A stretch of 64,000 nt of DNA from Vibrio spartinae (GTDB lineage Bacteria > Pseudomonadota > Gammaproteobacteria > Enterobacterales > Vibrionaceae): assembly GCF_024347135.1 (NCBI RefSeq), contig NZ_AP024907.1, positions 1,293,001 through 1,357,000 on the forward strand. Direction: 5' to 3'. Below are positions 41,335 to 56,966 of this stretch, piece after piece. The stretch's first letter is position 1. Each line of letters starts with the position of its first letter. The notes below the pieces were generated by a model. It saw only the letters and a program-made list of their open reading frames with translations. It made no database searches and had not been told where the DNA came from. Made by a program: the position numbers and the translations under genes.

Positions 41335-41724
41335 CCCAGCCTCCGGCCCCCGAATTTTGACGCACAATTTAGTTTCTCGATTTCAGTAACATCGGTACTC
41401 AGTGCGCCAGTTACTCTTGCCAAGATGCAAGCGTAACCAGAAAATCTTCTTGTTTGGCTGAGTCAGGTGTTGTCCAGAACCGTCTTTTACGGGCGTCCTG
41501 CCCGGAAAAGCCTAACCATTCTTCCTTGAATGGTTTTCTTGGTTCGGTGGTTTGTTTGAGTTGAGTGAAACATGTTAAAAGCCGACTTGGTTGCTTTCGA
41601 AGATGGAAAGTAATCGCGCACCAAACCACTGCATCACAATTTTCACTGATTGTTAAAACGCTGCAATTTTGTACAAACCTTATCGATATCAAAAAATATC
41701 ATGTGTATATCAATTTTTCTGGCG
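41335..41724 (+). repeat. Hairpin-rich repeat, array 1 (unit 1 plus truncated D module)
   Basis: One unit of the element also found at 43119, 43591, 49049, 49525, 51958, 52424, 56011 and 56496. It contains the core A module (41335-41512), the AACCATTC/GAATGGTT hairpin and the first 80 bp of the D module. This is the most diverged copy. Its main hairpin (41410-41437) has different stem bases but still pairs. Confidence 0.85.
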
Positions 41725-41806
41725 GTGGTAAGTGATACAGAACAATGACAGGATGTTATACGGCAGGATGCTGCCTAATAATTGTTAGTTGCTTAATCAG
41801 CTTCAG

Positions 41807-42085
41807 CTACTCAATTGGGAATTTTTGCTTTTGATGAAGAACTCGCATAATACGAATATTAGAATCATCGACAAAGTACGAAACGATCATTGATACTTCA
41901 GAAATGATAAGTAATCGACCTCGAATTCCATCACGTTGAACACCCATTAATGGTTGATCGTTAAGGTTTTCAACTTTAGCTTCAATAATGTCGTCGGTTC
42001 TTTCTGCGACATCAGGGTTAAAATCATATAGAAATTCAAAGATTTTTTCGCGGTCATTTAAAGATTCTTCTTCCCAGTAAATCAT
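41807..42085 (-). CDS. RelE/ParE-family toxin
   Basis: 92 residues of the ParE/RelE fold (MIYWEEESLNDREKIFEFLY, then GRLLIISEVSMIVSYFVDD and IRIMRVLH). Usually a ribosome-dependent mRNase or gyrase poison. The ATG overlaps the antitoxin stop by one base (TAATG). Such pairs are common in Vibrio integron cassettes, and a GTTATAC core lies at 41755-41761 just beyond the stop. Confidence 0.88.
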   Translation of the reverse strand: MIYWEEESLNDREKIFEFLYDFNPDVAERTDDIIEAKVENLNDQPLMGVQRDGIRGRLLIISEVSMIVSYFVDDSNIRIMRVLHQKQKFPIE

Positions 42086-42366
42086 TACTGACCTCGATTA
42101 CGAATTTTAGCTTTGCGTGCAGCCATGCGATTTTTGGCAGACTCATGGTCAACAAACACAGCACGGCCAGAATCAAATTTGTCAAATGCGAGATTAACTT
42201 GTTCAGTAAGCCAACCATCGTGGGATAATGCTTTACGTTGTTGTTCTGCTAGCTGTTCAGTGAGTTCGCGGCAAGCGTCACTAAGAGTTCGACCTTGGCT
42301 TTCAGCCATTTGTTGGGCTAAACGTTTTGTTTCTTCATCAACACGAAACTGAATTCTGGTATCCAT
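42085..42366 (-). CDS. RelB/DinJ-family antitoxin
   Basis: 93 residues from ATG 42366 with AGGAG seven bases upstream. Ribbon-helix-helix N-terminus (MDTRIQFRVDEETKRLAQQM), followed by a toxin-binding C-terminal tail rich in Lys/Arg. Represses its own operon and neutralises the toxin encoded next. Confidence 0.85.
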   Translation of the reverse strand: MDTRIQFRVDEETKRLAQQMAESQGRTLSDACRELTEQLAEQQRKALSHDGWLTEQVNLAFDKFDSGRAVFVDHESAKNRMAARKAKIRNRGQ

Positions 42367-42486
42367 GAGTAACTCCTGAATTTTTTGTGTGTACAAATGT
42401 TAGCACTGGTATTGGTGAAGGGCAATTAACAAATCGAAGCAATTGACAAAAATACCTGTCATGAATTTTGGTCCCCCATTCGCAAA

Positions 42487-42530
42487 GGCACATAACAAAC
42501 GCGTCAATTGGGACTGGTTTTCCGCTGGCG
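42487..42530 (+). repeat. Truncated Vibrio attC (VCR-type) fragment
   Basis: ATAACAAACGCGTCAA followed by GGGACTGG and a GCTGGCG stretch is the left arm of a Vibrio attC. The right arm is absent: the sequence switches to GC-rich DNA of unknown origin (42531-42700). This is a broken integron cassette boundary. Confidence 0.65.
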
Positions 42531-42756
42531 CTACAAACCAACCCATTACGCGGGCGCTGACGGATCCCTTCATGATTTTTCAAGCCCTGAATCGCGGCGA
42601 CGTGCAGAATGTCGAGCGTGAAGGACGATCGAGCCTGGACAGGCTGTTTACGGGGCTTGAGGACGTTAGCAGCGAGGAGCATGAAATGCGAATTTACTGA
42701 AAGAGGATAGATTGTTATCTTTACTGGCGACAAACAAATTAGACAGGAACAAAGAT

Positions 42757-43086
42757 ATGACTATCAACGAAAACGAAACTGCCGTCACTGTGGTTCTATG
42801 GGAAGCGAAGGCGAAACCAGGCCGCGAAGCGGATATGAAGGCTTTTATAGCCAATGCAGTTACTGCATCGCGCCATGACGCCGGCAACATCGACTATGAG
42901 GCACATGAAGTTGAGGGTGAACCTGGAGTGTTTATCATCTACGAGCGCTGGATCAGTCGCGCAGCGCTTGATGCTCATCTCGGCGCTCCCCGGATGCAAT
43001 CATTGGTACCTCAACTTATGGACATGATGGACGGTTCTATTGAAGACGGCATACGTATCCTTCGTTCTTTCAGACCGGCTGAATGA
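42757..43086 (+). CDS. Antibiotic biosynthesis monooxygenase (ABM) domain protein
   Basis: 109 residues from ATG 42757 (AGGA eight bases upstream). Dimeric alpha/beta-barrel ABM fold (VVLWEAKAKPGREADMKAFI; VFIIYERWISRAALDAHL). Usually acts on quinols or polyketide-like aromatics without a cofactor. A short GC-rich frame fragment (42531-42700) lies upstream. Probably acquired with the adjacent broken cassette. Confidence 0.85.
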   Translation: MTINENETAVTVVLWEAKAKPGREADMKAFIANAVTASRHDAGNIDYEAHEVEGEPGVFIIYERWISRAALDAHLGAPRMQSLVPQLMDMMDGSIEDGIRILRSFRPAE

Positions 43087-43118
43087 GTTTAGGAATCAAA
43101 AAGGTCAGATGGGTTCTT

Positions 43119-43868
43119 CCCAGCCTTCGGCCCCCCGAATTTTGACGGACAATTACGTTTTGCGATTTCAGAGGCATTGGCACTCTGTGCGCCAGTTCAT
43201 CTTTCAGAGATGAAAGACGAACCAGAAAATCTTTTTTGTTTGACGGCGTCGCACGTTGTCCAGAACCGACTTTTACGGACGTCCTGCCCGGAAAAGCCTA
43301 ACCATTCATCCGTGAATGATTTTCTTGGTTGGGTGGTTGATTTGAATTGAGTGAAATCTAAAGAAAGTCGATTTGGTCGCTGCTCTCAGGGGGAAAAATC
43401 CCGGATGGATTTTTCAGGATTGCTTGAGCAGGATGCGAATCAATCCGACCCTGATAACGCGTACTGAACCTAAAAAGATGCTTTTGGTTCCTTTTGCATC
43501 ATCAAAAGGAACTGGGGCGCTGTCGGAGATGTCATTGAAATCGGCAAAAATAATCGCGCACCAAACCGCTGCACCTCAATTTTTATATTCCCCAGCCATT
43601 GGCCCCAAATTTTGACGCACAATCTCGTTTTTCGGTTTCAGAGGCATTGGCACTCTGTGCGCCAGTTCATCTTTCAGAGATGAAAGACGAACCAGAAAAT
43701 CTTTTTTGTTTGACGGCGTCGCACGTTGTCCAGAACCGACTTTTACGGACGTCCTGCCCGGAAAAGCCTAACCATTCTCCCGGAATGGTTTTCTTGGTTG
43801 GGTGGTTGATTTGAATTGAGTGAAATCTAAAGAAAGTCGATTTGGTCGCTGCTCTCAGGGGGAAAAAT
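43119..43868 (+). repeat. Hairpin-rich repeat, array 2 (units 2 and 3 in tandem)
   Basis: Units start at 43119 and 43591, 472 bp apart. The first is complete (hairpins H1 to H5; the H4 stem GAAAAATCC/GGATTTTTC is at 43393-43415, the H5 stem GTTCCTTTTG/CAAAAGGAAC at 43487-43512). The second breaks off inside H4 at about 43868. Both share a GGACGTCC variant of H2, showing one copy arose from the other. Confidence 0.88.
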
Positions 43869-44095
43869 CAGGACGAACTTTTTATTTTTGTTTATAACCA
43901 AATGATTTTATTGAAATTAATTAAAATTTTGCTTATTAAAAAACCGATTTTATACACGCATTGCTACACGCAATTGTTTTGAATAATCATAGACTTACAT
44001 GAACAACAATGAAGTACCTAATTTAAGGTTTGCTTGATTTTTAAACATATTGACTATCTTTGCAAGTCCTGATTTTGCAGGAAAAGGGCTGATAC

Positions 44096-44123
44096 AAAAA
44101 GAGCCACAACATTATGCGGCTCT
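44096..44123 (-). terminator. Rho-independent terminator of the nuclease/ankyrin operon
   Basis: On the minus strand AGAGCC pairs with GGCTCT around 12 bases, followed by TTTTTG. It lies about 50 bp after the ankyrin gene stop. The segment 43869-44095 is AT-rich and empty. Confidence 0.75.
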
Positions 44124-44171
44124 GAATGGCTTCCGTTTTAAATAACAGCTTTACTTATAGTTGGGCTTTAT

Positions 44172-44678
44172 TTAGTAATGACTGACTAATTCAATGATTT
44201 TAGGATCAACACCTACGATTTTATGAATCAATTCACGAACGGAACAGCCATCATCTTTTTCATCAGGGTTAGCACCATATTCAAGCAATATTTTCACAAC
44301 CTCATAAGGAATTGGCATTCGATCAAAAGCCATTCTCAACGCACTAATACCATCAGCATCTTGATGTTCGATCATCTTATCCGCACCGTTTTCCAACAAG
44401 AGCCGGATCCCCTCAACGTTGCGTTGGCGAACGGCATATATCAGTGGCGTATAGCCATAGCTATCAATTGCGTTGACATCCAGCCCTTGGTCAATCAGAT
44501 ATTGGATAGATACCGGTGGAGTTTTTCTAGTTACCGATTTGAATGCGTAATGTAAATATGTCCATTTATCATTAGCCGTGATTCGATGAATGTCCTTGCC
44601 GTTTGCAATTGATCTTTTCACAGTTTCAATGTCACCACGAACTATAGCTGAGTAAGGTTGATTATCTACATTATTCAT
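44172..44678 (-). CDS. Ankyrin-repeat protein, probable immunity protein
   Basis: 168 residues with three to four ankyrin repeats (DSYGYTPLIYAVRQRNVEGI; DADGISALRMAFDRM; VVKILLEYGANPDEKDD). The start overlaps the stop of the nuclease gene (ATGA) and has AGGAG at the right distance. Small ankyrin proteins directly after nuclease toxins are known immunity proteins. That role is inferred from position. Confidence 0.8.
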   Translation of the reverse strand: MNNVDNQPYSAIVRGDIETVKRSIANGKDIHRITANDKWTYLHYAFKSVTRKTPPVSIQYLIDQGLDVNAIDSYGYTPLIYAVRQRNVEGIRLLLENGADKMIEHQDADGISALRMAFDRMPIPYEVVKILLEYGANPDEKDDGCSVRELIHKIVGVDPKIIELVSHY

Positions 44679-46237
44679 TGTGATCTCCTGTCACTTAAAA
44701 AGTCTTTCATGTCTTCCAAAATATCCTCTAATTCATCACTGCCCGGTTTCTCATTGACATGACTAAGGTTGGTCTTGGCATCCTCAATCAGAAAATAGTC
44801 AGGGTGTGAATTCACAAAATCATTCAATTCTTCCTGAGTCATACTCATCTCATCAGCCGCTCTGAGTATCCGTCGGTTTTCCAAGCCTTTTTTATGTCCA
44901 TAATGCCAGTCGGTTAAGACTTTGCCTTTTTTATCCGTGAAGTTACCATTTTCATCTCTTAAAGCCTCTGCTTCAATCTGCCGTTTGGTATCAGCCCTCA
45001 ACGTTGTCCGGTCAAGGTTTGGTTTCGGGTACTTGCTCGCACCAAACTGACCATTCGGTTGACGGATTTGATGACTATAGACCACATACAGTGGTGGTAA
45101 TCCGGTATCGGCCGGAAAGGTCAGAATATAGTCTTGTAAATCCGCATCAGCAATTGGCGTGATGTAGGTGTTATCAAATTCTTGGCCTTGCTCAGCCTCC
45201 GGATACACCCAGATATTGTAAGTTTTCAGGTCAGGAATCGGATTAACCAGAATCGGTTTACCGCCAAAATCGCCGCTCATCGGTATCCATTCAATAGTGA
45301 CATCCGGCTCTAACGCAACGACAAATTTATCACCGACCCGAGTCACTTCACGCTTGGGAATATCTGCCCCATTGACGTGATAGCCGTAAATCCGATTATC
45401 AGCATTGAACCCTAAGCGGATATTGGTTTCAACCGTGGTTTTATCCATCAGGTCATTTTCATTGTACAGCGTGCCGTCACCAAACTGGCTGGGCAGAAAT
45501 GCGGCCAGAATGCCAGCCCGACCGACAATTTTCATCGTCAGGTTCGGCAGCTCTGCCAGTGCTGCACCACCAATACGCGTTAAAAAAGCGTCTTCAGTCG
45601 CTGCCGTCCCAATCCCCTGACCAATCGCCAGCGTATAGGTAGCATACTCACCCAGAGAAGAGAGTTGCTCTCTTTGTGTACCGATATCACACGTTCCTCT
45701 CGGCACAAGGGCAGATTTGGCAAAACGTGAGGGTTTGAGCGGTGACTTGTTAAACGAGTCTTGCCATGATAACGGGGGCAGTTGAATATTATCTAATTCC
45801 TGTATTCGTTCCTGACGCTGTTTTGCCAGCCGCTCGGCTAAAGTGAGTTTCACAGGTTCACGTTCAACATAAGGCTCGGTATACACCGAGGCATTCACAC
45901 TGCCGGAATAAGTCGAACCAATGCCGTGATTAACCAGCTCAACCCGTGCGGTATAGGCCTTGTATGCCAGCCAGTCGAGCTGAGGCTCAACCTCGGGATT
46001 GACTCGCCAGTATCGATTGCCCCATTCATCCCGATCCCGAATCAATAAGGGGATGGATGGTGTATCAGTGAGTAAGACTTGATGGCCGCTGCGTAGCTGT
46101 TCGAGAAAATCAGAACAGCGTATTCCGGCAGGCGTCACGGATTTGATATCCGATTCGTGCAGGGATGAAAAATCCCCTTCAACCTGAGCAAATTCATACC
46201 TCATTAGGTTGTAGATTTGAATGGTTTGATAGTTCAT
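44675..46237 (-). CDS. S-type pyocin-domain protein with GH-E-like HNH/EndoVII nuclease tip
   Basis: 520 residues. The middle (about 270-388) is a pyocin S domain (RLGFNADNRIYGYHVNGADI, IWVYPEAEQGQEFDNTY). The C-terminus at 437-500 has DWHYGHKKGLENRRI, the GH-E motif of an HNH/Endonuclease VII-type nuclease, and SHPDYFLIEDAKTNLSH. The N-terminal 260 residues lack the usual receptor-binding domain of colicins. The toxin may therefore leave the cell by another route, for example type VI secretion, which is inference. Followed by its ankyrin immunity gene. Confidence 0.82.
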   Translation of the reverse strand: MNYQTIQIYNLMRYEFAQVEGDFSSLHESDIKSVTPAGIRCSDFLEQLRSGHQVLLTDTPSIPLLIRDRDEWGNRYWRVNPEVEPQLDWLAYKAYTARVELVNHGIGSTYSGSVNASVYTEPYVEREPVKLTLAERLAKQRQERIQELDNIQLPPLSWQDSFNKSPLKPSRFAKSALVPRGTCDIGTQREQLSSLGEYATYTLAIGQGIGTAATEDAFLTRIGGAALAELPNLTMKIVGRAGILAAFLPSQFGDGTLYNENDLMDKTTVETNIRLGFNADNRIYGYHVNGADIPKREVTRVGDKFVVALEPDVTIEWIPMSGDFGGKPILVNPIPDLKTYNIWVYPEAEQGQEFDNTYITPIADADLQDYILTFPADTGLPPLYVVYSHQIRQPNGQFGASKYPKPNLDRTTLRADTKRQIEAEALRDENGNFTDKKGKVLTDWHYGHKKGLENRRILRAADEMSMTQEELNDFVNSHPDYFLIEDAKTNLSHVNEKPGSDELEDILEDMKDFLSDRRSQ

Positions 46238-46405
46238 TTGACGTTGTGTCTGTATGAATTCAGTTCATATCGATATAGGAGAAGTATTGTACAACAGCGT
46301 CATAAAAGATGATCCATTATCAATAGAATCAGATGGTTAATATGGTTTACATTCCATAAATAGGGGGATTTACTGCCTTATTGATGAATAGTAATCACGT
46401 TGATG

Positions 46406-46609
46406 CTACTTCTCAGCTTTTGGTCGTTCATAGATCCCGTCAAAAGAGACCAGCTGAACTTCGATTACCCCACCAAAGTATTCAATTTTGACTCGTGGGT
46501 CATCTTGCTGTTTTAGCTGAGCGCTGAAGGTTTCATAAAGGGATGCAATAAACTCTCTGACAGGTTGATCAGCATCAAGCAGAGAGTGAGATGATTTATC
46601 TTGTTTCAT
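46406..46609 (-). CDS. Unrecognised 67-aa protein upstream of the nuclease gene
   Basis: From ATG 46609 the frame gives MKQDKSSHSLLDADQPVREF and ends in SFDGIYERPKAEK. Soluble, no recognised family. It lies 170 bp upstream of the nuclease gene in the same orientation, and may be an adaptor or an unrelated small protein. Confidence 0.5.
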   Translation of the reverse strand: MKQDKSSHSLLDADQPVREFIASLYETFSAQLKQQDDPRVKIEYFGGVIEVQLVSFDGIYERPKAEK

Positions 46610-46726
46610 AAGCCTACCAACATCGTGTGTAACAAATGAGCGATGACGCAATGCAACCGCTTCTGTTTATTCTTATTTATATGAATGATTTATATTTTGC
46701 TCTCCATTTCTAAAAGGAGAAACACA

Positions 46727-46950
46727 ATGGAAATCAATCAAATTATTCTCAATGAAAATCTATTCAGATATGCTTTATATCGGAATGAACAATCTGATGA
46801 GTATGTGATACTTCTATTAGGTTCTTTGCAAGAGTATTTACACAGACTTTAATGTCAGATCATCCTGATATCCCAAGAAATAAAGCGATAGCAAAAGCTA
46901 TAAAACAGAATATATCTAAATTTTCAGATGAAAGACGAAATATTTTTTGA
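46727..46950 (+). pseudogene. Two overlapping small frames, possibly one frameshifted gene
   Basis: AAAGGAG precedes ATG 46727, which opens a 41-codon frame (MEINQIILNENLFRYALYRN) ending at TAA 46850-46852. A second ATG overlaps that stop (TAATG) and opens a 32-codon frame (MSDHPDIPRNKAIAKAIKQN) to 46950. Either two coupled peptides or a gene split by a frameshift near 46825. No family recognised. Confidence 0.4.
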
Positions 46951-47103
46951 GATATTGATAGAATTAATTTTAAAAAAATCATCAAAAATATAATACACAT
47001 GCATTAATTAAATATAGAAAATAATCAGATAGTTAAGATATCAATTTTTATAGTTGTTTTTTCTTACCAAGGAATGCATACGATTCTAGTTTTTTAGCAC
47101 ATA

Positions 47104-48003
47104 TCAAGTCAACTTAAAATTATACTCTTTTATTGATAATTGGGATATTAATTGAATCACTTCATGTTTTTGATGAAGGTTGAGCCGACGGAAGGCTTCT
47201 ACAATCAGAATATCTCTATAATGCTGATATCGTCTCAGTTGGTGGAAGGCATAAAACTGCTTCATCTCACTTGTAAAATCAGCATGAGAGTTTGTATTAA
47301 AACCAAGGCGAACCCTAGCACCAATTGATATGGAGAACGGGACCGTTTTACGCTCATTTTCCAAGACATCGTACTGATATTTTGATAGCCCTAAGACTCT
47401 CGCCATGATGTTAGGTGATATACCATTTTCGAGTCGAAACCTCTTCATCATAATGGCGACAGAGCGATAATAATCAATCGCAAAAGCTTGTAAATCTAAT
47501 ACACTGGGTGGGAACAGTTGGTCATATTCTTTTTTACTGTAAAAATTATCTTTTACATTATTTTTGAAGATTAAAAAACTCTGTTTTGAATCGTTATCAA
47601 GTAACATATAGACCACGTCAAGAATGGAATTAAATTGTTTAGACGATAACCTACCAATATATATCAATGCTTTTATAGCACTATCATCCATTCCACGGAA
47701 TTGCTCTTTTACCTTTAAGCCATAGTAAAAGCTGGTTGAAGGAACCATTGTGACCCATGAATAGGCAGCAACAAAATGAATTGGTCTCATTGATAAATAA
47801 CTTTGTTGCATATATTTTTTCAAAGTTTCTCCGCTAAGTCCTCTAAATCGTTTTTGCAATTCATTAAAAGTAATTCCTTGTATTCTTTTTACATAAGACA
47901 TTCCCATAGCAATATCAGAGTCTATATTTTTCAATGTCTCATTTAAGTGTGCGATTTCTTGATCAGATGCAATTACAATTTTGTTGTTCTTTTGATTAGC
48001 CAT
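47104..48003 (-). CDS. Unrecognised 299-aa protein with C-terminal XRE-like helix-turn-helix
   Basis: From ATG 48003; a TTG two codons upstream is less likely. Most of the protein is helical with no known domain. Around residue 205 is a helix-turn-helix (RLENGISPNIMARVLGLSKY, then VLENERKTVPFSISIGARV) like that of XRE repressors. The gene is AT-rich, single, and lies between two toxin/immunity sets. It may regulate them, but there is no direct sign. Confidence 0.65.
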   Translation of the reverse strand: MANQKNNKIVIASDQEIAHLNETLKNIDSDIAMGMSYVKRIQGITFNELQKRFRGLSGETLKKYMQQSYLSMRPIHFVAAYSWVTMVPSTSFYYGLKVKEQFRGMDDSAIKALIYIGRLSSKQFNSILDVVYMLLDNDSKQSFLIFKNNVKDNFYSKKEYDQLFPPSVLDLQAFAIDYYRSVAIMMKRFRLENGISPNIMARVLGLSKYQYDVLENERKTVPFSISIGARVRLGFNTNSHADFTSEMKQFYAFHQLRRYQHYRDILIVEAFRRLNLHQKHEVIQLISQLSIKEYNFKLT

Positions 48004-48188
48004 ATACAAACTAGCCTAATAATGAATATCCCATTAATTACATAGGCACAGAGGTTATTAATTTTTTCAGATATGTCAATCTTGTTTGTGTGTCATTTTG
48101 CTCACAATATCTATGAATAATTAATTTTACATCATCTGTTCAATATATGTTTTCACTAATCGCTATTATTAATTAACACAAAATACAC

Positions 48189-48416
48189 TTATTCACAGAA
48201 CTCCAAGTTAAAAGAAGGTGCTAAGCCGGACTCTATCTGCCACGCAAAGACACGGGTGATGAATTCACGTCCGGCAGTTATCACCCCTTTTAAAGCCCTG
48301 ACCAATTCGTTATCACAATATTGGCTGGTTTTCACCGCTCCGGTGGTTTGGTTAACAGCAAGCTTATAATAGGGCTTAAATACCTGTGCTTGGCGCTCAC
48401 AGAATACACCGCCCAT
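48189..48416 (-). other. Open frame of unknown nature beside the orphan DNase module
   Basis: A 75-codon frame with protein-like composition (YYKLAVNQTTGAVKTSQYC; ALKGVITAGREFITRVFAWQ). It runs opposite to and slightly overlaps the DNase module. Possibly the remnant of a gene into which the toxin tip was inserted. Not recognised. Confidence 0.3.
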
Positions 48417-48778
48417 TTGCTGAAGATATCACCGGCCTGTGGTTAGAAGCCGCCGAGAAAGAGCTAGGCTCTCCGGTGCCGTCGCAAATTGCGGATCAGC
48501 TCAGAGGACAGAAGTTCGAAAGCTTTGACAAGTTCAGGGAAAGCTTTTGGTTGACAGTGAGTGAAGACGGAAATTTGTTATCGCAGTTTGCGTCAAAGAA
48601 CCAACGATTAATCAAAAAAGGACGTTCACCTTTTGCTTTACCTCAAGAACATGTTGGTAAAAGAAGTCGATATGAAATTCATCATGTAGAAGAAATTCAG
48701 CATGGTGGTAAAGTCTATGATGTTGATAATATGAGAGTTATGACGCCTAAAAGTCATATAAATATTCATAGGAAATAA
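48386..48778 (+). CDS. Orphan colicin/pyocin-type HNH DNase toxin domain
   Basis: Only the C-terminal killing domain is present. Similarity to the E2/E7/E9 DNases begins near ITGLWLEAAEKELGSPVPSQ and runs to the HNH site (EIHHVEEIQHGG, DVDNMRVMTPKSHINIHR), which is complete. The translocation and receptor-binding domains are missing. The first residues from GTG 48386 have no ribosome site and no family support. So this is a detached toxin tip, either silent or waiting to recombine behind another N-terminus. Its immunity gene follows by 4 bp. Confidence 0.85.
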   Translation: MLGAHRIHRPFAEDITGLWLEAAEKELGSPVPSQIADQLRGQKFESFDKFRESFWLTVSEDGNLLSQFASKNQRLIKKGRSPFALPQEHVGKRSRYEIHHVEEIQHGGKVYDVDNMRVMTPKSHINIHRK

Positions 48779-48782
48779 CAAA

Positions 48783-49031
48783 ATGAAATTAAAAGATAGC
48801 TTACAAGATTATACAGAAAATGAGTTTCTCATTACTTTGGAATGGTTCTGGGATGGTGAAGGTTCGGAAGAAGATGAATTTGTCTATCAGTTCAATCAGA
48901 TCGTACGCCATCCAGAGAAAAGCGCTCTATTAACTCATCCAAAATCACACCAAGAAGATTCTCCCGAAGGTGTTATTCAAGAGTTGAAACGATGGTATGC
49001 CGAACAAGGATTACCATGCTTTAAGGATTGA
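48783..49031 (+). CDS. Colicin E/pyocin-type immunity protein
   Basis: 82 residues of the Im7/Im9 four-helix family (MKLKDSLQDYTENEFLITLE; EDSPEGVIQELKRWYAEQG). Binds and blocks the DNase of the cognate toxin. The helix III region, which usually has the specificity pair Tyr-Tyr before Pro, reads LTHPKSHQ here. Intact and well placed, so it may protect against outside DNases even if the adjacent toxin is headless. Confidence 0.9.
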   Translation: MKLKDSLQDYTENEFLITLEWFWDGEGSEEDEFVYQFNQIVRHPEKSALLTHPKSHQEDSPEGVIQELKRWYAEQGLPCFKD

Positions 49032-49048
49032 TTCAGTCTTTTTAATTT

Positions 49049-50129
49049 CCGGTCTTTGGCTCCTCAATTTGACGCACAATCTCGTTTTTCGGTTTCAGGG
49101 GGATTGGTGCTCTGTGCGCCAGTTCATCTTTCAGAGATGAAAGACGAACTAGGAAATCTTTTTTATTTGGCTGAGTTGCGGGTTGTCCAGAACCCGCTTT
49201 TACGGGCGTCCTGCCCGGAAAAGCCTAATCATTCTTCCTTGAATGGTTTTCTTGGTTTGTAGATTTATTTGAATTCAGTGAAACATTCTAAAAGGCAATT
49301 GGATCGATGGGCTCAGGGTAAAAATTCATGGATGAATTTTAAGCTATCCCTTAACAAAAAGACTGAGCAGGAGCGAATAAAAGCGACCCGGGCCGCGACC
49401 ACGAACTAAAACGTTCTTTTGGGTACTTTTGGAACGCCAAAAGTATCTGGGGCGCGTGCATCAGATGTCGCAGAAATTAATAAACTCATTGCGCCTCAAA
49501 CAACAGAGCCACAATGTTCATCTCCCCAGCCTCCGGCCCCAAATTTTGACGCACCATTGCGTTACTCAATTTCAGATGCATCGGTGTTCTGTGCGCCAGT
49601 TCATCTTTCAGAGATGAAAGACGAACCAGAAAATCTTTTTTTGTTTGACGGCGTCGCATATTGTCCAGAACCAGCTTTTACGGGCGTCCTGCCCGGAAAA
49701 GCCTAACCATTCATCCGTGAATGGTTTTCTTGGTTGAGTGGTTGATTTGAAGTTGGGCGCAACATTTTTAAAAGCCAATTCCCTGATGATCAAAACGCTG
49801 CAATTTTGTACAAAAACCTACCGGCATCAAAAAATATCACATTAGTGCCAATTCTTTCTGGCGATTTTCTGCAAGATCTCCAATGCTATATACAGTGTTT
49901 TGAGGCTCACTCGCGAACAAATGGGGCTTATCCGAGATGTGTCTAAGGGTGGGAACGTTAGTCAATCATTTGTGAGTGAGTTAGACAGCGTTGTGCTGTG
50001 GTTTCTGACGTAGTGATATTTTTTACTGGAATTTTGTCTGTATTTTCATGCGATTAGGACAGAAATTTCATCGAGTGTCAGTAAGTTATACAGAAGTATT
50101 CCTATAGAGTGGTTCTATAATAAACTGTT
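49049..50129 (+). repeat. Hairpin-rich repeat, array 3 (units 4 and 5, then full D module)
   Basis: Units start at about 49049 and 49525, 476 bp apart. The first carries the C2 variant of H4/H5 (AAAATTCA/TGAATTTT; GGTACTTTTGG/CCAAAAGTATC). The second is followed by a 340-bp D module (about 49780-50129). D ends with a perfect TATAAT (50116-50121) and AAACTGTT, then the histidine kinase leader. D is similar along its whole length to 52680-53029. Confidence 0.88.
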
Positions 50130-50191
50130 CGCATTTCAAGAATAGGAAAATTGCTGATTTTGACTCGCCAAAATCAAATGGAGACTTCGCA

Positions 50192-51883
50192 ATGCATCCA
50201 TTAGAACAACTTCTCAGAAAAAATGAATTGTGGTTAATGCGTCGTATCCGTGATTATGCCGTGGAAAGAGATTACAGCCGTTATACTTCGACTTTAGAAG
50301 AAGCTTGGAGGATTTCAATTGTTGGGTTGACAGACTCCATCATATCGGCACTTACTATTTCGGAAGATCCTTGGGAATTGTCCCCCGAAGATACCTACAT
50401 TTCCGACCCCATTGCAGCTTTCGGAGTTCTTGAGGCTCAGAAGCATAGATCCCGCGGAGTTACGCTTGAGATGTTCCTGGGTTTGATGAAGTATTACCGA
50501 CAAACATACCTTGATTTGCTCCGAAAGTCCTACCCTATAGGGCAGGTATCTAAAGAGGAACCTCTAAACGAAGTCAATAATGATAGAGAGAAGTATTCCC
50601 ATTTTATTGAGCGGGTTTTTGATCGGATCGAAATAGCTTTTTGTGCCGAATGGGGCAGGAGCGATACAATGAACCGGGCTATTGGAGAACTGCAGGAAAC
50701 CAACCGCCGGATCACCAATGAGAAGAACAAGTTTCTTACCATTTTCGAAAGTATGCCGACGGCAGTTTTTCTACTGGATGATAAAAGACGTATCGTTCAT
50801 ATGAATTTTTCTGGGGCACAGATGATCGATCCCACAGCTAAATCGGGTGGACACTATTATTCACATCCTGATGACAGAATACCTTTTCCATGGTTGGAAG
50901 ATGAGTTGTCTCGTTTTTATGAGACAGGCGATGAAAAAGAATACGAGTATTTAATTGAATTGCCGGACAAGGATGAATGCCAGGTGTTGGCGCGTTTTCA
51001 TCCCATGGAGGATATTAGTTTTAAGTACACAGGCAAAGTTGTCATTCTCCAAGATATTACTGAAAGAAAAAAAGCTGAAAAAGAATTAAAACAAACACAG
51101 ACATATATAATTCATCAGGAGAAAATGGCGTCCATCGGGCAACTGGCAGCAGGTGTGGCGCACGAAATAAACAACCCGATGGGATTTATCATAAGCAACC
51201 TTTCCAGCCTCAGGAAATATATTGAGTGTCTGACTGAATTCATTACTGTGGAGGATCAGGCGATAGCCCTTGCGGACATTCCCAACGACTTCCAGTTGGC
51301 TGAAATCAGGGAAAAACTCAAGATCGATTATATATCGGAGGATGTAAAAGAGCTCATAGTTGAGAGTCTGGACGGCGCTGAACGAGTAAAGCACATTGTT
51401 CAGGAGTTAAAGACTTTTTCCAGGATAGATCAAGCCGATTACACATTAATCGATCTGAACGAGACAATAAAGACTACAATGAATATTGCTTGGAACGAGA
51501 TCAAATATGTAGCCACTCTCGAACATGAGTTCGGAAATATCCCTAAAATTAACTGTTATCCACAGCAGTTGAACCAAGTTTTTCTTAATCTTCTGGTCAA
51601 TGCGGCCCAAGCAATCAAGGACCAGGGAACAATCACGGTGCGCACTTGGTGTGATGAAAAAAATATTAATGTATCTATTACCGATACCGGTGGTGGAATT
51701 TTACCAAAAGATTTGGCCCGGATATTTGAACCTTTTTATACCACAAAGGATGTTGGTAAAGGAACGGGTCTTGGACTTTCTATCAGCTATGGCATTATTC
51801 AAAACCATGGTGGTGAAATTAGAGTTGAGAGTGAAATTGGCAAAGGTAGTACTTTCACGGTAACGCTTCCAATACATAAATGA
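50192..51883 (+). CDS. Sensor histidine kinase with RsbRD-like N-terminus and PAS domain
   Basis: 563 residues, no membrane helices. The N-terminal 160 residues look like the RsbRD sensor fold (LLRKNELWLMRRIRDYAVER). Then come a PAS domain (IFESMPTAVFLLDDKRRIVH), HisKA (IGQLAAGVAHEINNPMGF) and HATPase (FLNLLVNAAQAIKDQG; GKGTGLGLSIS). GGAG precedes the start. The HEINNP-type catalytic box and domain order are typical of Desulfobacterota and unusual for a Vibrio, so transfer is likely. No response regulator is adjacent. Repeats enclose the gene on both sides. Confidence 0.9.
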   Translation: MHPLEQLLRKNELWLMRRIRDYAVERDYSRYTSTLEEAWRISIVGLTDSIISALTISEDPWELSPEDTYISDPIAAFGVLEAQKHRSRGVTLEMFLGLMKYYRQTYLDLLRKSYPIGQVSKEEPLNEVNNDREKYSHFIERVFDRIEIAFCAEWGRSDTMNRAIGELQETNRRITNEKNKFLTIFESMPTAVFLLDDKRRIVHMNFSGAQMIDPTAKSGGHYYSHPDDRIPFPWLEDELSRFYETGDEKEYEYLIELPDKDECQVLARFHPMEDISFKYTGKVVILQDITERKKAEKELKQTQTYIIHQEKMASIGQLAAGVAHEINNPMGFIISNLSSLRKYIECLTEFITVEDQAIALADIPNDFQLAEIREKLKIDYISEDVKELIVESLDGAERVKHIVQELKTFSRIDQADYTLIDLNETIKTTMNIAWNEIKYVATLEHEFGNIPKINCYPQQLNQVFLNLLVNAAQAIKDQGTITVRTWCDEKNINVSITDTGGGILPKDLARIFEPFYTTKDVGKGTGLGLSISYGIIQNHGGEIRVESEIGKGSTFTVTLPIHK

Positions 51884-51904
51884 ACCGACTGTCCCTTTAG
51901 GGAT

Positions 51905-53029
51905 AAAATTGAGGAAAGTGATTGCGCACCAAACCGCTGCACCTCAATTTTTATATTCCCCAGCCATTGGCCCCAAATTTTGACGCACCATTGCGTTACT
52001 CAATTTCAGAGGCATTGGCACTCTGTGCGACAGTTCATCTTTCAGAGATGAAAGACGAACCAGAAAATCTTTTTTTGTTTGACGGCGTCGCACGTTGTCC
52101 AGAACCGGCTTTTACGGGCGTCCTGCCCGGAAAAGCTTAACCATTCTTCCTTGAATGGTTTTCTTGGTTTGTAGATTTATTTGAATTCAGTGAAACATTC
52201 TAAAAGGCAATTGGATCGATGGGCTCAGGGTAAAAATTCATGGATGAATTTTAAGCTTTTCGTGAGCAGGAGCGAATAAAAGCGACCCGGGCAGCGACCA
52301 CGAACTAAAACGTTCTTTTGGGTACTTTTGGAACGCCAAAAGTATCTGGGGCGCGTGCATCAGATGTCGCAGAAATTAATAAACTCATTGCGCCTCAAAC
52401 AACAGAGCCACAATGTTCATCTCCCCAGCCATTGGCACCGAATTTTGACGCACAATTGCGTTACTCAATTTCAGAGGCTTCTGAGCTCTGTGCGCCAGTT
52501 CATCTTTCAGAGATGAAAGACGAACCAGAAAATCTTTTTTGTTTGGCTGAGTTGCGTGTTGTCCAGAACCGGCTTTTACGGGCGTCCTGCCCGGAAAAAG
52601 CCTAATCATTCTCCCGGAATGGTTTTCTTGGTTGAGTGGTTGATTTGACGTTGGGCGCAACATTTTTAAAAGCCAATCTCCTGATGATTAAAACGCTGCA
52701 ATTTCGTACAAACCTTATTGATGTCAAAAATGTCATGTTTATGTCAATTTTTACTGGCGATTTTCAGTAACATATTCAATGCTATGTAGGGTGTTTTGAT
52801 GATTATTCGCAAACGCATGGTAATGATACGAGATGTATATATGGTGGTGGGAATGTTAGTCAATCATTTGTGAGCAAATTAGATAGCGTTGTACTGTGAT
52901 TTCTGATGTAATGACATTTTTTACTGGCATTTTGTCTGTATTTTCATGCGTTTAGGACAGAAGTTTCATTGAGTGTCAGTAAGTTATACAGAAGTATCCC
53001 TATAGAGTGGCTCTGTATAATAAACTGTT
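51905..53029 (+). repeat. Hairpin-rich repeat, array 4 (unit end, units 6 and 7, full D module)
   Basis: Begins 22 bp after the kinase stop with the tail of a C1 segment (GAGGAAAGTGATTGCG). Units start at 51958 and 52424, 466 bp apart, and a D module follows (about 52680-53029) with TATAAT at 53016-53021 and GTT at 53027-53029. The stretch 52160-52420 is nearly identical to 49255-49520, so arrays 3 and 4 share a recent duplication. Confidence 0.88.
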
Positions 53030-53066
53030 ATAACACTTTCCGGAGTGTCAGCATGGAGGCAATAAT

Positions 53067-53450
53067 ATGGACATAAAAAGAGTACACAATGCACAATGTC
53101 ATTGTGGTGCAGTTGAATTGGAACTAACGATGCCAAATGGACTAGAAGACCCTCGTCGTTGCTCTTGTTCTATGTGTAGGAAGCGCGGAGCAATTGCTGC
53201 ATCAGTCTTGCTTGAAAACCTCAAAATTGTAAAAGGTGAAGATAACTTGACCCTTTATCAATTTAATACCATGACGGCGAAGCACTACTTTTGTAAAACT
53301 TGCGGCATATACACTCATCACCAAAGGCGCTCCAATCCACATCAATTCGCAATTAATGTTGCGTGTCTTGAAGGTGTTAATCCTTATGATTTGGAGCCAG
53401 TCAAAATTTACGATGGTATTCATCACCCAAAAGACAGCATTAACTTGTAA
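53067..53450 (+). CDS. GFA-family (glutathione-dependent formaldehyde-activating-like) zinc protein
   Basis: 127 residues with the zinc-binding cysteines of the GFA fold: CHCGAVELEL, CSCSMCRKRGA and CKTCGIYTHHQRR. GGAGG stands seven bases before ATG. The family name comes from a single characterised member; most members have unknown substrates. The gene with its attC site makes up a complete integron cassette from 53028 to 53590. Confidence 0.9.
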   Translation: MDIKRVHNAQCHCGAVELELTMPNGLEDPRRCSCSMCRKRGAIAASVLLENLKIVKGEDNLTLYQFNTMTAKHYFCKTCGIYTHHQRRSNPHQFAINVACLEGVNPYDLEPVKIYDGIHHPKDSINL

Positions 53451-53468
53451 GCGCAAATGTTGAGGCGT

Positions 53469-53596
53469 GTTATAACAAGGCGTTTAAGGCAGATTCGCAA
53501 CGCATGGCATTTTCGGTTTGCTTTGAATTTAGTGTTTACGGCACAATGATTTAGGTTAAGTGGAGGTGTCGCTCACTACTTAACGCGGCGTTATAC
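53469..53596 (+). repeat. attC: Complete Vibrio-type attC recombination site
   Basis: The left core GTTATAAC (53469-53476) and right core GTTATAC (53590-53596) bound about 128 bp. The outer arms TATAACAAGGCGTTTAAG and CTTAACGCGGCGTTATA are imperfect complements, and the middle TTTGAATTTAGTGTTT is typical of Vibrio cassettes. Lies between the GFA and DUF1963 genes, the normal cassette position. Confidence 0.88.
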
Positions 53597-53619
53597 CCTT
53601 CCAACCAAGGAACATATTA

Positions 53620-54414
53620 ATGAATTCAAGTGAAGATAAAATCGTAGTTCCTTCAGTTCTTAAAGAGTTTGAAGATGACCTTAAAAAGCTACAACGTGAA
53701 TATATCTCAGTTGAAGCTAAAGCATTAAATACCGGCCTTTCAGCCGACCCGTTGAATCTAACTAGAAGCAAGTTTCTTGGTTTTCCTTTTTATCCAATTG
53801 ATTCTGAATACCCAATGGATAAGGCTGGTAACCCAATGGTTTTGCTAGCTCAAATAAATTTTTCAGAAACTCCTAGTCTAGAAGGCTTTCCATCTTCTGG
53901 CTTGTTACAGCTTTTCTTCCCTACCGATGACTGGTGGGATATGGATTCAGGAAAAATAATCTTCCATAAAGAGAGTGATCTTGAAAAAAGTGCGGTCACT
54001 GATTTTTCATTTATTAATGAGAAACTTTATGAAGAGCTACCGATCAATAGAATTCATGAGATGATATTCAAGAAGGCTATAGATACAGGCTGTAGTGAAG
54101 ATTCACAATTCTCCTTTATGTTTGGTTCTAAAGATTATTGGGACTTCGAAGAAGGCTTAAATGATGCTGGTAAAGCGGAGTTTGATAACTACTTCTCTTC
54201 AACAGGGCATAAAATTGGAGGCTACGCTGATTTTACCCAGGGCGATCCTCGAGATTACAGTAAAGAACAAAGAAATGATGTTCAGTTGCTTCAAATAGAC
54301 GTCGATGATTATATTATGTTTGGCGATAGCGGAATTGGACATATTTTCATTAACCCTGAAGATCTAAAAGCAGAAAAATTTGAGAATGCTTATTTTTACT
54401 GGGACTGCTGTTAA
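53620..54414 (+). CDS. DUF1963/YwqG-family protein
   Basis: 264 residues of DUF1963: FYPIDSEYPMDKAGNPMVLL, LLQLFFPTDDWWDMD, GGYADFTQGDPRDY and MFGDSGIGHIFINPEDL. Function unknown; common in integron cassettes. AAGGA precedes ATG, 24 bp after the attC core, so this is the next cassette. Its own attC is missing: an IS110 remnant begins right after the stop. Confidence 0.88.
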   Translation: MNSSEDKIVVPSVLKEFEDDLKKLQREYISVEAKALNTGLSADPLNLTRSKFLGFPFYPIDSEYPMDKAGNPMVLLAQINFSETPSLEGFPSSGLLQLFFPTDDWWDMDSGKIIFHKESDLEKSAVTDFSFINEKLYEELPINRIHEMIFKKAIDTGCSEDSQFSFMFGSKDYWDFEEGLNDAGKAEFDNYFSSTGHKIGGYADFTQGDPRDYSKEQRNDVQLLQIDVDDYIMFGDSGIGHIFINPEDLKAEKFENAYFYWDCC

Positions 54415-54439
54415 CCTAAATTTTTGGCATAACCAGAGG

Positions 54440-54690
54440 CTATGCCGTCAATAATGAATTTTTACCCATATTAGCGTCCCATTTGCTTCCGTCTCTGAGC
54501 ATCGAATTGAGGATAACAACCATTTTTCCGATGCAGGTAATGATTGCCACTTTCTTGGGTTTTCCAACAGCTAAAAGGCGCTGATAAGTAGCCTTAAAAA
54601 CTGGATGGGTTGCAACGCAGACATCATTGCCATGTACAAAACGACACGTATTTGCGAGCCCCCTCCTTGGAGCATGCTCCTGCCTTTGTT
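54440..54690 (-). pseudogene. IS110-family transposase C-terminal remnant
   Basis: Minus-strand reading gives HPVFKATYQRLLAVGKPKK, then VAIITCIGKMVVILNSMLRD, the end of an IS110 transposase. The preceding RFVLYMAMMSALQP lies in another frame, so there is a frameshift near 54630. The insertion removed the 3' end of the DUF1963 cassette. Confidence 0.82.
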
Positions 54691-54754
54691 TTGGACACTT
54701 CACCACCACTCACAAAAAGATTAAAGCAAGAAATCCGTCGCATTTTTCCCCGCA

Positions 54755-54788
54755 ACACCGATAAAACTATGATAAACGGTGTTTTTTG
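54755..54788 (+). promoter_or_regulatory. Inverted repeat with -10-like box before the MNT-HEPN gene
   Basis: AACACCG and CGGTGTT flank 16 bases that include TATGAT (54769-54774), followed by a T run. It could be a promoter under an operator, since the arms enclose the -10, or a terminator with a large loop. Not resolved. Confidence 0.45.
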
Positions 54789-54845
54789 TTGAACGCTTCT
54801 TTTATGCTAACGCCATTCATCCACCACCAACCCTATGCCGCGATT

Positions 54846-55727
54846 ATGAAAACAGCACTTGACCATCTGCCCGAATATAAACAGCGTGAGCTGGCGACGA
54901 TTTCAACTATTCTGCGCGACACGTTAGACGATTATCTGCAAGGTAAAGCGGGGAGTAAGAGTGAGTTCCGTATTCTGAAAATCATCCTGTTTGGCAGCCA
55001 TGCGAAAGGGAATTGGGTCAAGGATCCGGTTAATGGTTATATTAGTGATTACGATATTCTGGTGATTGTGAATAAAGCAGCAATGGTTGAGGAAGATGTC
55101 GTCTGGCAACGCGCCAAAGAGCAGATTGACCGGAAAGTCACCTCTGCTCCGCTGGGTTTGATTGTGCATGATTTAAACGAAGTGAATAATCGACTGCAAC
55201 AGGGGCATTATTTCTTTAAAGATATTCGCGAAGAAGGGATTGAGCTGTTTGCCGCCACACCGAAACAGCTGGTAGAGCCGGGGGATTTAACCGAGGCAGA
55301 AAAACGGGAAATCGCCCGTAAGCATTATGAGCAGTGGTTTGAGAGTGCTTCGGATTTTCTGGTGACTTATCAATTTGATAAAAATCGCGGCAAGTTGAAA
55401 CAAGCAGCTTTTCTCCTTCATCAATCGACAGAACGGTTTCTTGCCGGAACGTTACTCGTCTGCACCAATTACCTACCCAAATCTCACGATATTGAAAAGC
55501 TGGGTAAACTTTGTTCACAAATCGCCCCTGATTTTGCGACGATTTTCCCGCTCGACAGCAAATTGCACCGTCGCAGTTTCCGCCGCCTACAACGGGCTTA
55601 TATCGAAGCGCGTTACTCTGAACATTACGAAATCACTGAAGAAGAGCTGGCTTATCTCGAAGGGAGAGTGTTGCAGTTAAAAGCGGTCGTTGAACGGGTT
55701 TGTTTCGCGCGGATTGATTCTGCCTAA
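54846..55727 (+). CDS. MNT nucleotidyltransferase - HEPN fusion protein
   Basis: 293 residues from ATG 54846; ATGs at 54786 and 54804 are also in frame. The N-terminal half has the minimal nucleotidyltransferase site (ILFGSHAKGNWV, then DYDILVIV). The C-terminal half is a HEPN-type helical domain (AAFLLHQSTERFLAGTLLVC). HEPN/MNT pairs act as toxin-antitoxin systems in which MNT adenylylates HEPN; fused forms exist, often with sugar or antibiotic-type MNT. The stop TAA belongs to the first bases of a repeat (GCCTAACCATTC), so the end may be trimmed. Confidence 0.85.
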   Translation: MKTALDHLPEYKQRELATISTILRDTLDDYLQGKAGSKSEFRILKIILFGSHAKGNWVKDPVNGYISDYDILVIVNKAAMVEEDVVWQRAKEQIDRKVTSAPLGLIVHDLNEVNNRLQQGHYFFKDIREEGIELFAATPKQLVEPGDLTEAEKREIARKHYEQWFESASDFLVTYQFDKNRGKLKQAAFLLHQSTERFLAGTLLVCTNYLPKSHDIEKLGKLCSQIAPDFATIFPLDSKLHRRSFRRLQRAYIEARYSEHYEITEEELAYLEGRVLQLKAVVERVCFARIDSA

Positions 55728-56966
55728 CCATTCTCCTGTGAATGGTTTTCTTGGTTTAGTGGCTTATTTGAATTGAGAGAAACATTTTAAGAGCCGACTT
55801 GAACGATGCACTCAGGGTAAAAATTCATGGATGAATTTTAAGCTTTTCGTGAGCAGGAGCGAATAAAAGCGACCCGGGCAGCGACCACGAACTAAAACGT
55901 TCTTTTGGGTACTTTTGGAACGCCAAAAGTATCTGGGGCGCGTGCATCAGATGTCGCAGAAATTAATAAACTCATTGCGCCTCAAACAACAGAGCCACAA
56001 TGTTCATCTCCCCAGCCTTCGGCCCCAAATTTTGACGCACAATCTCGTTTTTCGGTTTCAGAGGCTTCGGTGCTCTGTGCGCCAGTTCATCTTTCAGAGA
56101 TGAAAGACGAACCAGAAAATCTTTTTTGTTTGGCTGAGTTGCGTGTTGTCCAGAACCGGCTTTTACGGGCGTCCTGCCCGGAAAAGCCTAACCATTCATC
56201 CGTGAATGGTTTTCTTGGTTGGGTGGTTTGTTTGAATTGGGTGAAACATAGCAAAAGCTGGATTGGTCACGAGACTCAGGGTGAAAAATCATGGAGGATT
56301 TTTCAATTATCCCCTAACAAAAAATCTTGAGCAGGATGCGAATCAATCCGACCCTGATTGCGTGTGCTGAACTTAAACTCAAGGCATTTTTGGGGACTTT
56401 TGCTGCTGGGCAAAAGTCTCTGGGGCGCTTTCGGAGATGCTAATGAAATCGAGGAAAGTGATTGCGTCCCAAACTCAGCATCATCCTTTTACGTTTCCAG
56501 CCATCGGCGTTGCAGTTTGACGCACAATGACGTTTTTCGGTTTCAGAGGCTTCGGTGCTCTGTGCGCCAGTTCATCTTTCAGAGATGAAAGACGAACCAG
56601 AAAATCTTTTTTGTTTGACGGCGTCGCACGTTGTCCAGAACCGGCTTTACGGGCGTCCTGCCCGGAAAAGTCTAACCATTCATCCGTGAATGGTTTTCTT
56701 GGTTGGGTGGTTTGTTTGAATTGGGTGAAACATAGCAAAAGCTGGATTGGTCACGAGACTCAGGGTGAAAAATCATGGAGGATTTTTCAATTATCCCCTA
56801 ACAAAAAATCTTGAGCAGGATGCGAATCAATCCGACCCTGATAACGCGTACTGAACCCAAAAAAGATGCTTTTGGTTCCTTTTGACATCCATCAAAAGGA
56901 ACTGGGGCGCATTCGACAATGCTAATGAAATCAATGAATGTGATTGCGTCCCAAACACCTGCATCA
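55722..56966 (+). repeat. Hairpin-rich repeat, array 5 (partial unit, units 8 and 9)
   Basis: Starts inside the MNT-HEPN gene at its stop codon with the H3 hairpin and a C2 segment. Units 8 and 9 begin at 56011 and about 56496, 485 bp apart. C1-type segments follow each. The H5 stems are at 56393-56420 (GGGACTTTTGC/GCAAAAGTCTC) and 56875-56902 (GTTCCTTTTGA/TCAAAAGGAAC). Ends exactly at the panF stop codon. Confidence 0.88.

Follow-up and report, generated by a model that had tools for sequence, protein, structure and literature searches.

Repeat arrays in the window and in the genome

The window analysed here is a stretch of 64,000 nucleotides from Vibrio spartinae (RefSeq assembly GCF_024347135.1, contig NZ_AP024907.1, positions 1,293,001 to 1,357,000 of the forward strand), and its subject is a structured repeat of about 470 bp that forms arrays between changeable genes. 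The repeat unit is an inverted pair of diverged monomers of about 215 bp, A (minus strand) and then B (plus strand). The profile hidden Markov model (HMM) of the unit also hits the unit on the reverse strand, and reversing one half brings the two into alignment. The window contains nine A and seven B monomers (one B truncated), plus one A remnant. A monomer 1 (41338..41553; core 41474-41542) is followed by A monomer 2 (43122..43341), B monomer 1 (43347..43565), A monomer 3 (43594..43810) and the truncated B monomer (43816..43887). Further along are A monomer 4 (49054..49267), B monomer 2 with a long form of the hp2 spacer (49274..49500), A monomer 5 (49528..49746), A monomer 6 (51962..52179), B monomer 3 (52186..52399) and A monomer 7 (52427..52644). 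The last copies are the truncated A remnant (55722..55772), B monomer 4 (55773..55986), A monomer 8 (56014..56229), B monomer 5 (56237..56473), A monomer 9 (56499..56713) and B monomer 6 (56721..56955). All A copies, including the remnant, lie on the minus strand and all B copies on the plus strand.

An earlier note on this DNA had described nine copies of a multi-hairpin element, and the nine A monomers are indeed found where it placed them. It had also counted five hairpins (H1 to H5) per unit. H1, H3 and H5 are present, but the unit proved to be a head-to-head dimer; H1 and H5 represent one element in its two orientations, and so do H3 and H4.

Monomers were called by repeat finding and nhmmer over the retrieved stretches of this two-chromosome Vibrio genome, which yielded 157 copies (84 A and 73 B), with 74 A and 61 B at full length. 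Neighbouring monomers (gap of at most 60 bp) alternate between A and B with a single exception, one B-B neighbour. The A-to-B gap has a median of 6 nt (56 junctions), and the B-to-A gap one of 28 nt (47 junctions). The arrays are inverted pairs in tandem with linkers of about 28 nt, located at about 20 loci on both chromosomes. Solitary monomers also occur, and truncations fall at the A/B border at unit position 219 (five ends and six starts, the loci of relatives included); these show that A and B are separable modules. At C2:1107771-1108641 of this genome, three A monomers stand in direct tandem at about 320 bp without B, and at the matching site of V. ruber one A adjoins the shared flank.

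Fold, strand and covariation

On the folding strand (R), which is the minus strand for A and the plus strand for B, both monomers form a three-way junction of a stem P1 and two hairpins, hp1 and hp2. Downstream of the hp1/hp2 junction is H1 (in A) or H5 (in B), and then a closing GCGC stem. RNAalifold gave -37.1 for A on the R strand versus -22.9 on the opposite strand, and -28.8 versus -14.2 for B. Over the predicted pairs together with H1 and H5, the alignment cells with G-U exceed those with A-C by 412:11 in A and 185:2 in B; therefore R is the pairing strand.

The 13 pairs of H1 are 91-100% standard over the 74 full A copies, and the 13 pairs of H5 are 92-100% standard over the 61 full B copies. 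Two-sided changes were found at 129-150, 135-144, 130-149 and 128-151 for H1 (A alignment), and at 148-173, 149-172, 150-171, 156-165 and 157-164 for H5 (B alignment). H1 is present as two alleles (37 and 36 of the 74 copies, with one other), whose positions are linked within the hairpin and hardly at all with the remainder of the monomer (best agreement 0.67). In the window, A monomer 1 is the sole copy with one allele, and the other eight A monomers carry the other. The base-pair changes that had been noticed in H1 are thus real, but they mostly reflect two alleles exchanged as blocks rather than many independent events. The shuffling of the alleles looks as though short conversion tracts had swapped this hairpin by itself. 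On a tree, 25-26 compensatory events were counted for three H1 pairs; given how weakly the H1 alleles are linked to the remaining monomer, these are not regarded as independent. An R-scape-like test on the A alignment gave E of about 0.002 for three H1 pairs, but linked non-pairs of the same allele scored equally, and nothing was significant in hp1, hp2 or P1; in the B alignment no true stem pair fell under E 0.05.

A joint A/B alignment was made of 21 rows chosen for diversity among 88 pattern-fitting cores (44 A and 44 B). In this alignment 95.5% of cells pair, versus 81.7% in shuffles and 27-51% with slid partners; two further measures, the covariation score and the number of cells with a change on each side, likewise lie above all 500 shuffles. 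The pairs changed on both sides (8 versus 7.6 shuffled) and the further pair types (14 versus 15.8) do not exceed the shuffles, and the changes are mostly the A/B split, hence few events. A model (R1) built from these 21 rows alone found 14 matches elsewhere, of which 13 are distinct. Among them 16 of 18 pairs are changed on both sides versus 7.9 in shuffles, and all five measures are above all 500 shuffles; since R1 itself found and aligned these rows, pairing is favoured, and three rows score weakly (E 0.08-0.09). When stem arms were swapped between copies, 7.55 of 8 paired in A (7.60 for the own arms), 6.68 in B (7.33 for the own arms) and 4.94 across A and B. The GGA counts of this comparison (42/43 and 57/57) were not used, as the loop patterns mostly required GGA. 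On the whole, the A/B split, the other lineages and the one-strand G-U bias support the fold better than the covariation of H1.

Conserved GGA loops

The loops of hp1 and hp2 retain GGA (TCC on the plus strand). With patterns that had no GGA requirement, it turned up in 43 of the 44 loops parsed for A and in as many (43 of 44) for B, and in the full-copy alignments the GGA columns reach 0.91-0.99 in the 74 A and 1.00 in the 61 B copies. The hp1 loop columns of A are A 0.91, T 0.34, G 0.97, G 0.99, A 0.91 and A 0.76, and its hp2 loop is nearly invariant throughout; in B the hp1 loop reads A 0.95, T 0.51, GGA 1.00 and C 0.43, and the hp2 loop AGGA 1.00 and then T 0.52. Some neighbours of GGA thus drop to 34-52% identity. 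The earlier note had H3 keeping its stem around a freely varying loop; the stem is kept and the loop does vary, but the GGA is retained. Over the 88 cores, the hp1 loop is usually ANGGAN or AGGAN, and the hp2 loop is mostly AGGAC, AGGAU or AGGA. The two GGAs of the A cores are 24 nt apart.

Relationship to the TwoAYGGAY family

The earlier note had known of no named family that matches. Scanning the window against Rfam gave RF01731 (TwoAYGGAY) above the gathering score twice on the minus strand, in A monomer 8 (56151-56217, 47.4 bits) and A monomer 5 (49658-49732, 43.1 bits; cut-off 43), and no other Rfam family reached its gathering score there. In A monomer 6 a further match (52050-52195, 37.8 bits, under the cut-off) aligns to RF01731 from end to end, but a large part of the outer stem in the 168-position model does not pair. 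Two adjacent hairpins closed by a common stem are present, as in RF01731. From these alignments, the repeat is classed as a TwoAYGGAY match in its core and as TwoAYGGAY-like in its outer part, because the long outer stem of the model is largely unpaired here. An excerpt of PMC4333381 likewise describes the long outer stem as not well conserved. TwoAYGGAY is listed as a probable RNA, probably not cis-regulatory, from human gut, gamma-proteobacteria and Clostridiales (PMC2864571, in part), and is among the families with improved structures (PMC11701678, in part). In open-licence PMC articles, at the level of titles and the start of abstracts, nothing was found on TwoAYGGAY as a repeat or on these arrays.

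This genome contains 17 matches to RF01731 (5 above the Rfam cut-off), whereas 14 control genomes contain none. In a survey of 369 genomes of the class (at most 7 candidates scored per genome, E up to 0.001), 24 were positive, and in a survey of 196 genomes of the genus (at most 13 candidates scored per genome) 13 were positive. RF01731 is multi-copy (at least two matches) in 14 of the 24 positive class genomes. Of the 29 class loci, 20 were surveyed for pairs, as were 19 of the 24 loci from the genus. The survey revealed close inverted pairs of RF01731, divergent at L122, L126, L130 and L146 and convergent at L145; self-inverted stretches of 589-675 bp are found at these five loci and at L149, all from two families, f160 and f89. 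Three loci of one genome (G586; L158, L165 and L169) show a tandem spacing of 463-494 bp. RF01731 therefore behaves as an interspersed repeat, being multi-copy in most of the positive class genomes and arranged as inverted pairs in two other families. The repeat described here is a real, ordered, high-copy repeat, with the RF01731 core in a new arrangement.

Searching with R1 covered 40 loci (all 29 new class loci and 11 of the 24 new genus loci). Its 14 matches at E up to 1 include 11 with E <0.02, and all 11 fall on RF01731 places. Three of these are outside Vibrio, at L129 (1.7e-7) and L137 (4.5e-5) of family f12 and at L134 (0.006) of family f2, and the remaining eight are at loci of two other Vibrio genomes. 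The absence of a named family is thus contradicted both by the Rfam scores and by a model made from A and B only. Most of the high-GC class loci were missed by R1. Out of 35 RF01731 hits folded, 33 were examined for loops, and 25 of these have two C-A(N)GGAN-G loops; the minimum free energy folds favour pairing here, since a structure-based search had supplied the hits. Selection on a folded strand, which the earlier note had put forward, is supported by the one-strand G-U bias, by GGA in both loops of the diverged halves and by the same fold in other families. Of its two options, RNA or single-stranded DNA, the latter appears less likely, because the folding strand alternates between A (minus) and B (plus) within each unit.

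A 492-bp unit compared with plasmids and phages gave no match at blastn sensitivity, in a collection from which records near the window's own genome may have been omitted. No match of the unit DNA was found in 149 other genomes of the family (4 candidates scored per genome), a draw which missed the close relatives; those relatives carry the element by the RF01731 and pattern searches. Exact matches to a 32-base hp2 core pattern in a collection of species genomes, which possibly omits records of the window's own genome, amounted to 33 stretches, all from Vibrio ruber DSM 16370 or Vibrio sp. MEBiC08052. In three Vibrio genomes a solitary RF01731 element lies between convergent csdA-like and csdE-like genes (L151, L152 and L153; gene names by eye), and is possibly a conserved old copy.

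Cassettes and the MNT-HEPN gene

The cargo between the arrays of the window includes ParE toxin-like and RelB-like proteins (41807..42396, minus strand; the latter just under the Pfam cut-off), an S-type pyocin/colicin-like protein with a GH-E nuclease domain and an adjoining ankyrin-repeat protein (44172..46237, minus strand), and a colicin/pyocin DNase-domain protein of 130 aa with a small downstream open reading frame (48386..49031, plus strand). The eight proteins scanned gave ParE, RelB-like, ABM, ankyrin, pyocin-like and colicin DNase matches, with one protein without a family. Arrays of the Vibrio ruber group are situated between cargo that changes (CRISPR-Cas, colicins and toxin-antitoxin genes), and often follow an MNT-HEPN gene. 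At C2:451-496 kb of this genome, the arrays are found with I-F cas genes (Cas1f, Cas8f and Cas6f) and Cmr1/Cas10-like genes; the same flanks in Vibrio sp. MEBiC08052 enclose about 5 kb matching the ankyrin/pyocin stretch of the window. The same site thus holds different cargo in the two genomes. Within that region (C2:462425-486000), where a Cas10/Cmr1-type cluster accompanies the I-F cas genes, B monomers are joined directly to CRISPR repeats that look I-F-like by eye.

The MNT-HEPN gene of the window (54846..55727, plus strand; an inner ATG was chosen as the start) encodes a HEPN domain (44 bits) and a weak nucleotidyltransferase match (NTP_transf_2, 22.7 bits; cut-off 21), and its stop codon is inside hp1 of the A remnant. 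It has 31 copies in this genome and 15-41 in each of five other element-carrying Vibrio genomes (fragments counted), and none in two other Vibrio genomes. A monomer is located at most 150 bp downstream in 9 of the 25 copies here (6 fragments left out). Among 26 loci (L248-L273, one from this genome), an A/B match lies at most 1.1 kb past the stop codon in 16 and none in 10; both are raw counts of adjacency. Other class genomes, too, may carry several MNT-HEPN genes (up to 6 scored); 19 such copies had no A/B match downstream, five of the flanks being just 65-321 bp long. The idea that RF01731 elsewhere has MNT-HEPN for an obligate partner was rejected: 7 of the 369 class genomes have MNT-HEPN (E up to 1e-20), 24 have RF01731 and 2 have both. 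MNT-HEPN was also rejected as a known defence protein, for no PADLOC family matched. About twenty MNT-HEPN genes or fragments lie a few kb apart in one 70-kb stretch of another Vibrio genome (G643, C2:811995-882000), and at the loci L001 and L156 the gene is beside Rhs-like C-terminal fragments (by eye).

Some other sequences adjoin the arrays. At 53030-53600 of the window, a GFA-like gene (53067-53450) is followed by an attC-like stretch (TATAACAAGGCG...GCGTTATACC), which looks by eye like an integron gene cassette. A sequence of about 337 bp is repeated after A monomers (49783-50119 and 52681-53017, with its start also at 41646), with further matches close to C2:918k and C2:74k and at loci of V. 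ruber. It ends in TTATAAC ahead of the cassette at 53030 and resembles, by eye, an integron attI/promoter region without the integrase. A short repeat family with palindromes of the GGACACACACCTTAAAGTGCGTC type adjoins some units (L051, flanks at C1:1211507 and 1223174) and has many copies in G643.

Joints, orientation and candidate empty sites

Truncated copies recurrently start at unit position 171-177, between hp2 and hp1. Joined there are the MNT-HEPN gene and, through internal deletions, unit position 35 and further parts from the inside or the beginning of the unit, as well as two or more other sequences; the survey has 21 rows, several of which are copies of one event. With same-orientation copies within 30 kb merged and the replication arms taken from sampled GC skew, 17 of 20 loci have their units directed away from the origin (p = 0.0026). 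A search for PF01797 in the genome gave one match of 153 aa, by eye IS200-like rather than RAYT. PF00589 gave 11 matches, and of the 9 proteins inspected by eye none resembles an integron integrase. An apparent insertion point (C1:1225157) was merely the boundary between two retrieved loci of one V. ruber contig, and the 451-kb C2 site in G533 was rejected as a clean empty site, for its left flank loses synteny on the right.

Possible function of the repeats

The reading that we prefer, at roughly even confidence, is that this is an interspersed repeat of the TwoAYGGAY kind, which displays a two-site target of the regulator CsrA on whichever strand is transcribed. One monomer of about 215 bp would encode a three-way-junction RNA that presents GGA in two neighbouring loops. 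Because the head-to-head pair points both ways, any transcript crossing it would carry one correctly oriented monomer. This RNA would act as a two-site target for the dimeric CsrA/RsmA, and the arrays would serve as binding sites in untranslated regions and/or as a CsrA sponge. The repeats would have spread through the genome and formed arrays between exchangeable cassettes, with cargo turning over at fixed sites, probably via recombination between repeats. What the analysis itself establishes is the anatomy, the copy number, the fold and its strand, the conservation of GGA, the evidence for the family and the arrays that share a site but differ in cargo; transcription, CsrA binding and the mobility or mode of spread of the repeats are what we infer here. 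The proposal agrees with the consensus from systematic evolution of ligands by exponential enrichment (SELEX), RUACARGGAUGU with GGA in a hairpin loop, and with a dual-site range of 10-63 nt (excerpt of PMC7652899), within which the 24-nt distance of the A loops falls. A csrA gene was found in all 17 RF01731-positive genomes tried (of 36 positive) and in 3 of 14 controls, and the Rfam clan CL00106 holds RF01731 with rsmX and RsmW.

Several observations weigh against this proposal. The hairpin stems are longer than those of the SELEX winners, for which a very stable structure might be unfavourable (excerpt of PMC7652899). One GGA loop alone is present in 8 of the 33 RF01731 hits, and in 5 of the 33, from three high-GC families, ACGAC replaces GGA in one loop. 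Many RF01731 loci are single monomers and not inverted pairs. Twelve of the 17 matches in this genome score below the Rfam cut-off, and matches above it are found in just 16 of the 369 class genomes and 11 of the 196 genus genomes. No empty site or target duplication was seen among the sites compared with relatives, and the searches of the genome found no dedicated transposase. The array transcripts and their binding of CsrA are themselves predictions from sequence.

The closest rival places the function in DNA, and would rank second after CsrA targeting. The hairpins might act as extruded single-stranded or cruciform sites that are cut by a recombinase or a structure-specific nuclease, in the manner of attC sites, IS200/IS605 ends or repetitive extragenic palindromic (REP) and bacterial interspersed mosaic elements (BIME), by which genes would be captured and shuffled; we consider this rather unlikely. 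The orientation along the replication arms, the recurrent truncation at 171-177 with several different upstream partners, the exchange of H1 as a block and the integron-type cassette nearby would all suit such sites. Gene-strand bias, however, could produce the same orientation effect, and no single replication strand carries the fold, which alternates between A and B in every unit. The sole Y1 transposase gene looks IS200-like, no integron integrase was recognised among the tyrosine-recombinase matches inspected, and the conservation of the GGA loops is left unexplained. Somewhat more doubtful is that the repeats are BIME-like elements of 3' untranslated regions, namely bidirectional stabilisers or attenuators of mRNA that were spread by extinct transposition and have no role with CsrA. 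The inverted-pair architecture, the location just past stop codons and the element between the convergent csd-like genes fit this, but GGA in both loops of A, B and distant lineages would remain without a reason.

If the repeats were passive and decayed, their apparent covariation would come from two alleles and shared ancestry, as the linked and shuffled H1 alleles, the weak R-scape-like test and the two A/B measures not above shuffles might suggest. This is already disfavoured and in our view improbable: A and B differ at many stem positions and both still fold, the other three measures exceed all 500 shuffles, pairing collapses with slid partners, and the other lineages agree on all five measures, albeit in an alignment fitted to the model. 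Least credible of all is a protein-coding repeat. Some long open reading frames overlap the units, but no frame is conserved: the best one is open through 16 of the 74 full A and 1 of the 61 full B copies, and the monomer lengths fall in all three classes modulo 3. Coding is rejected on this ground, in agreement with the earlier note.

A two-site CsrA target remains the preferred reading. A broader version of it, which we consider rather unlikely, makes RF01731 a widespread class of mobile repeat and not a small-RNA gene; its inverted pair would show the target on every transcript that crosses it from either side. In the V. ruber group it would have become the spacer of an integrase-free cassette system, with MNT-HEPN as partner and the hp1/hp2 branch point as the place where captured genes are joined. 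When RF01731 was listed in 2010 no function was given, and the only proposal found in print, that it is a CsrA-binding RNA, came from motif matches (excerpt of PMC4333381). The high-copy inverted pairs shift the question from the target of a small RNA to why a GGA-hairpin RNA spreads, which is testable in cultured Vibrio; what has been taken for a regulatory RNA may in fact be a repeat that spreads through genomes. Should the repeats bind CsrA, their more than 150 copies could bring this global regulator to the transcripts of toxin, CRISPR and other cassettes. In addition, the arrays resemble a way of building cassettes outside integrons.

Comparison with known systems

BIMEs are inverted pairs of palindromic monomers. 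The repeats described here share this arrangement and the high copy number with REP/BIME elements; whereas their monomers are about 215 nt long with a branched fold, and the Y1 transposase of this genome appears to be IS200-like and not RAYT. Integron attC arrays also have a structured repeat after genes and swappable cargo at a fixed site. Unlike them, the unit here is 470 bp long, the arrays are found at about 20 loci on both chromosomes, and none of the 9 of 11 candidates seen by eye was recognised as an integron integrase. The TwoAYGGAY RNA (RF01731) has the same strand and the same three-way junction with two adjacent GGA-loop hairpins, and some copies score above its cut-off. The differences are that the outer long stem of the Rfam model is unpaired here, that the hp2 loop is usually AGGAY, and that the monomers, over 150 of them, form head-to-head dimers in tandem arrays. 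In Rfam the family is annotated as cis-regulatory, whereas it is multi-copy in this analysis. The sponge RNAs of the CsrB/RsmX/RsmY/RsmZ type also carry GGA in hairpin loops, and RF01731 shares a clan with rsmX and RsmW; whereas the repeats here are scattered in arrays and are not a single small-RNA gene.

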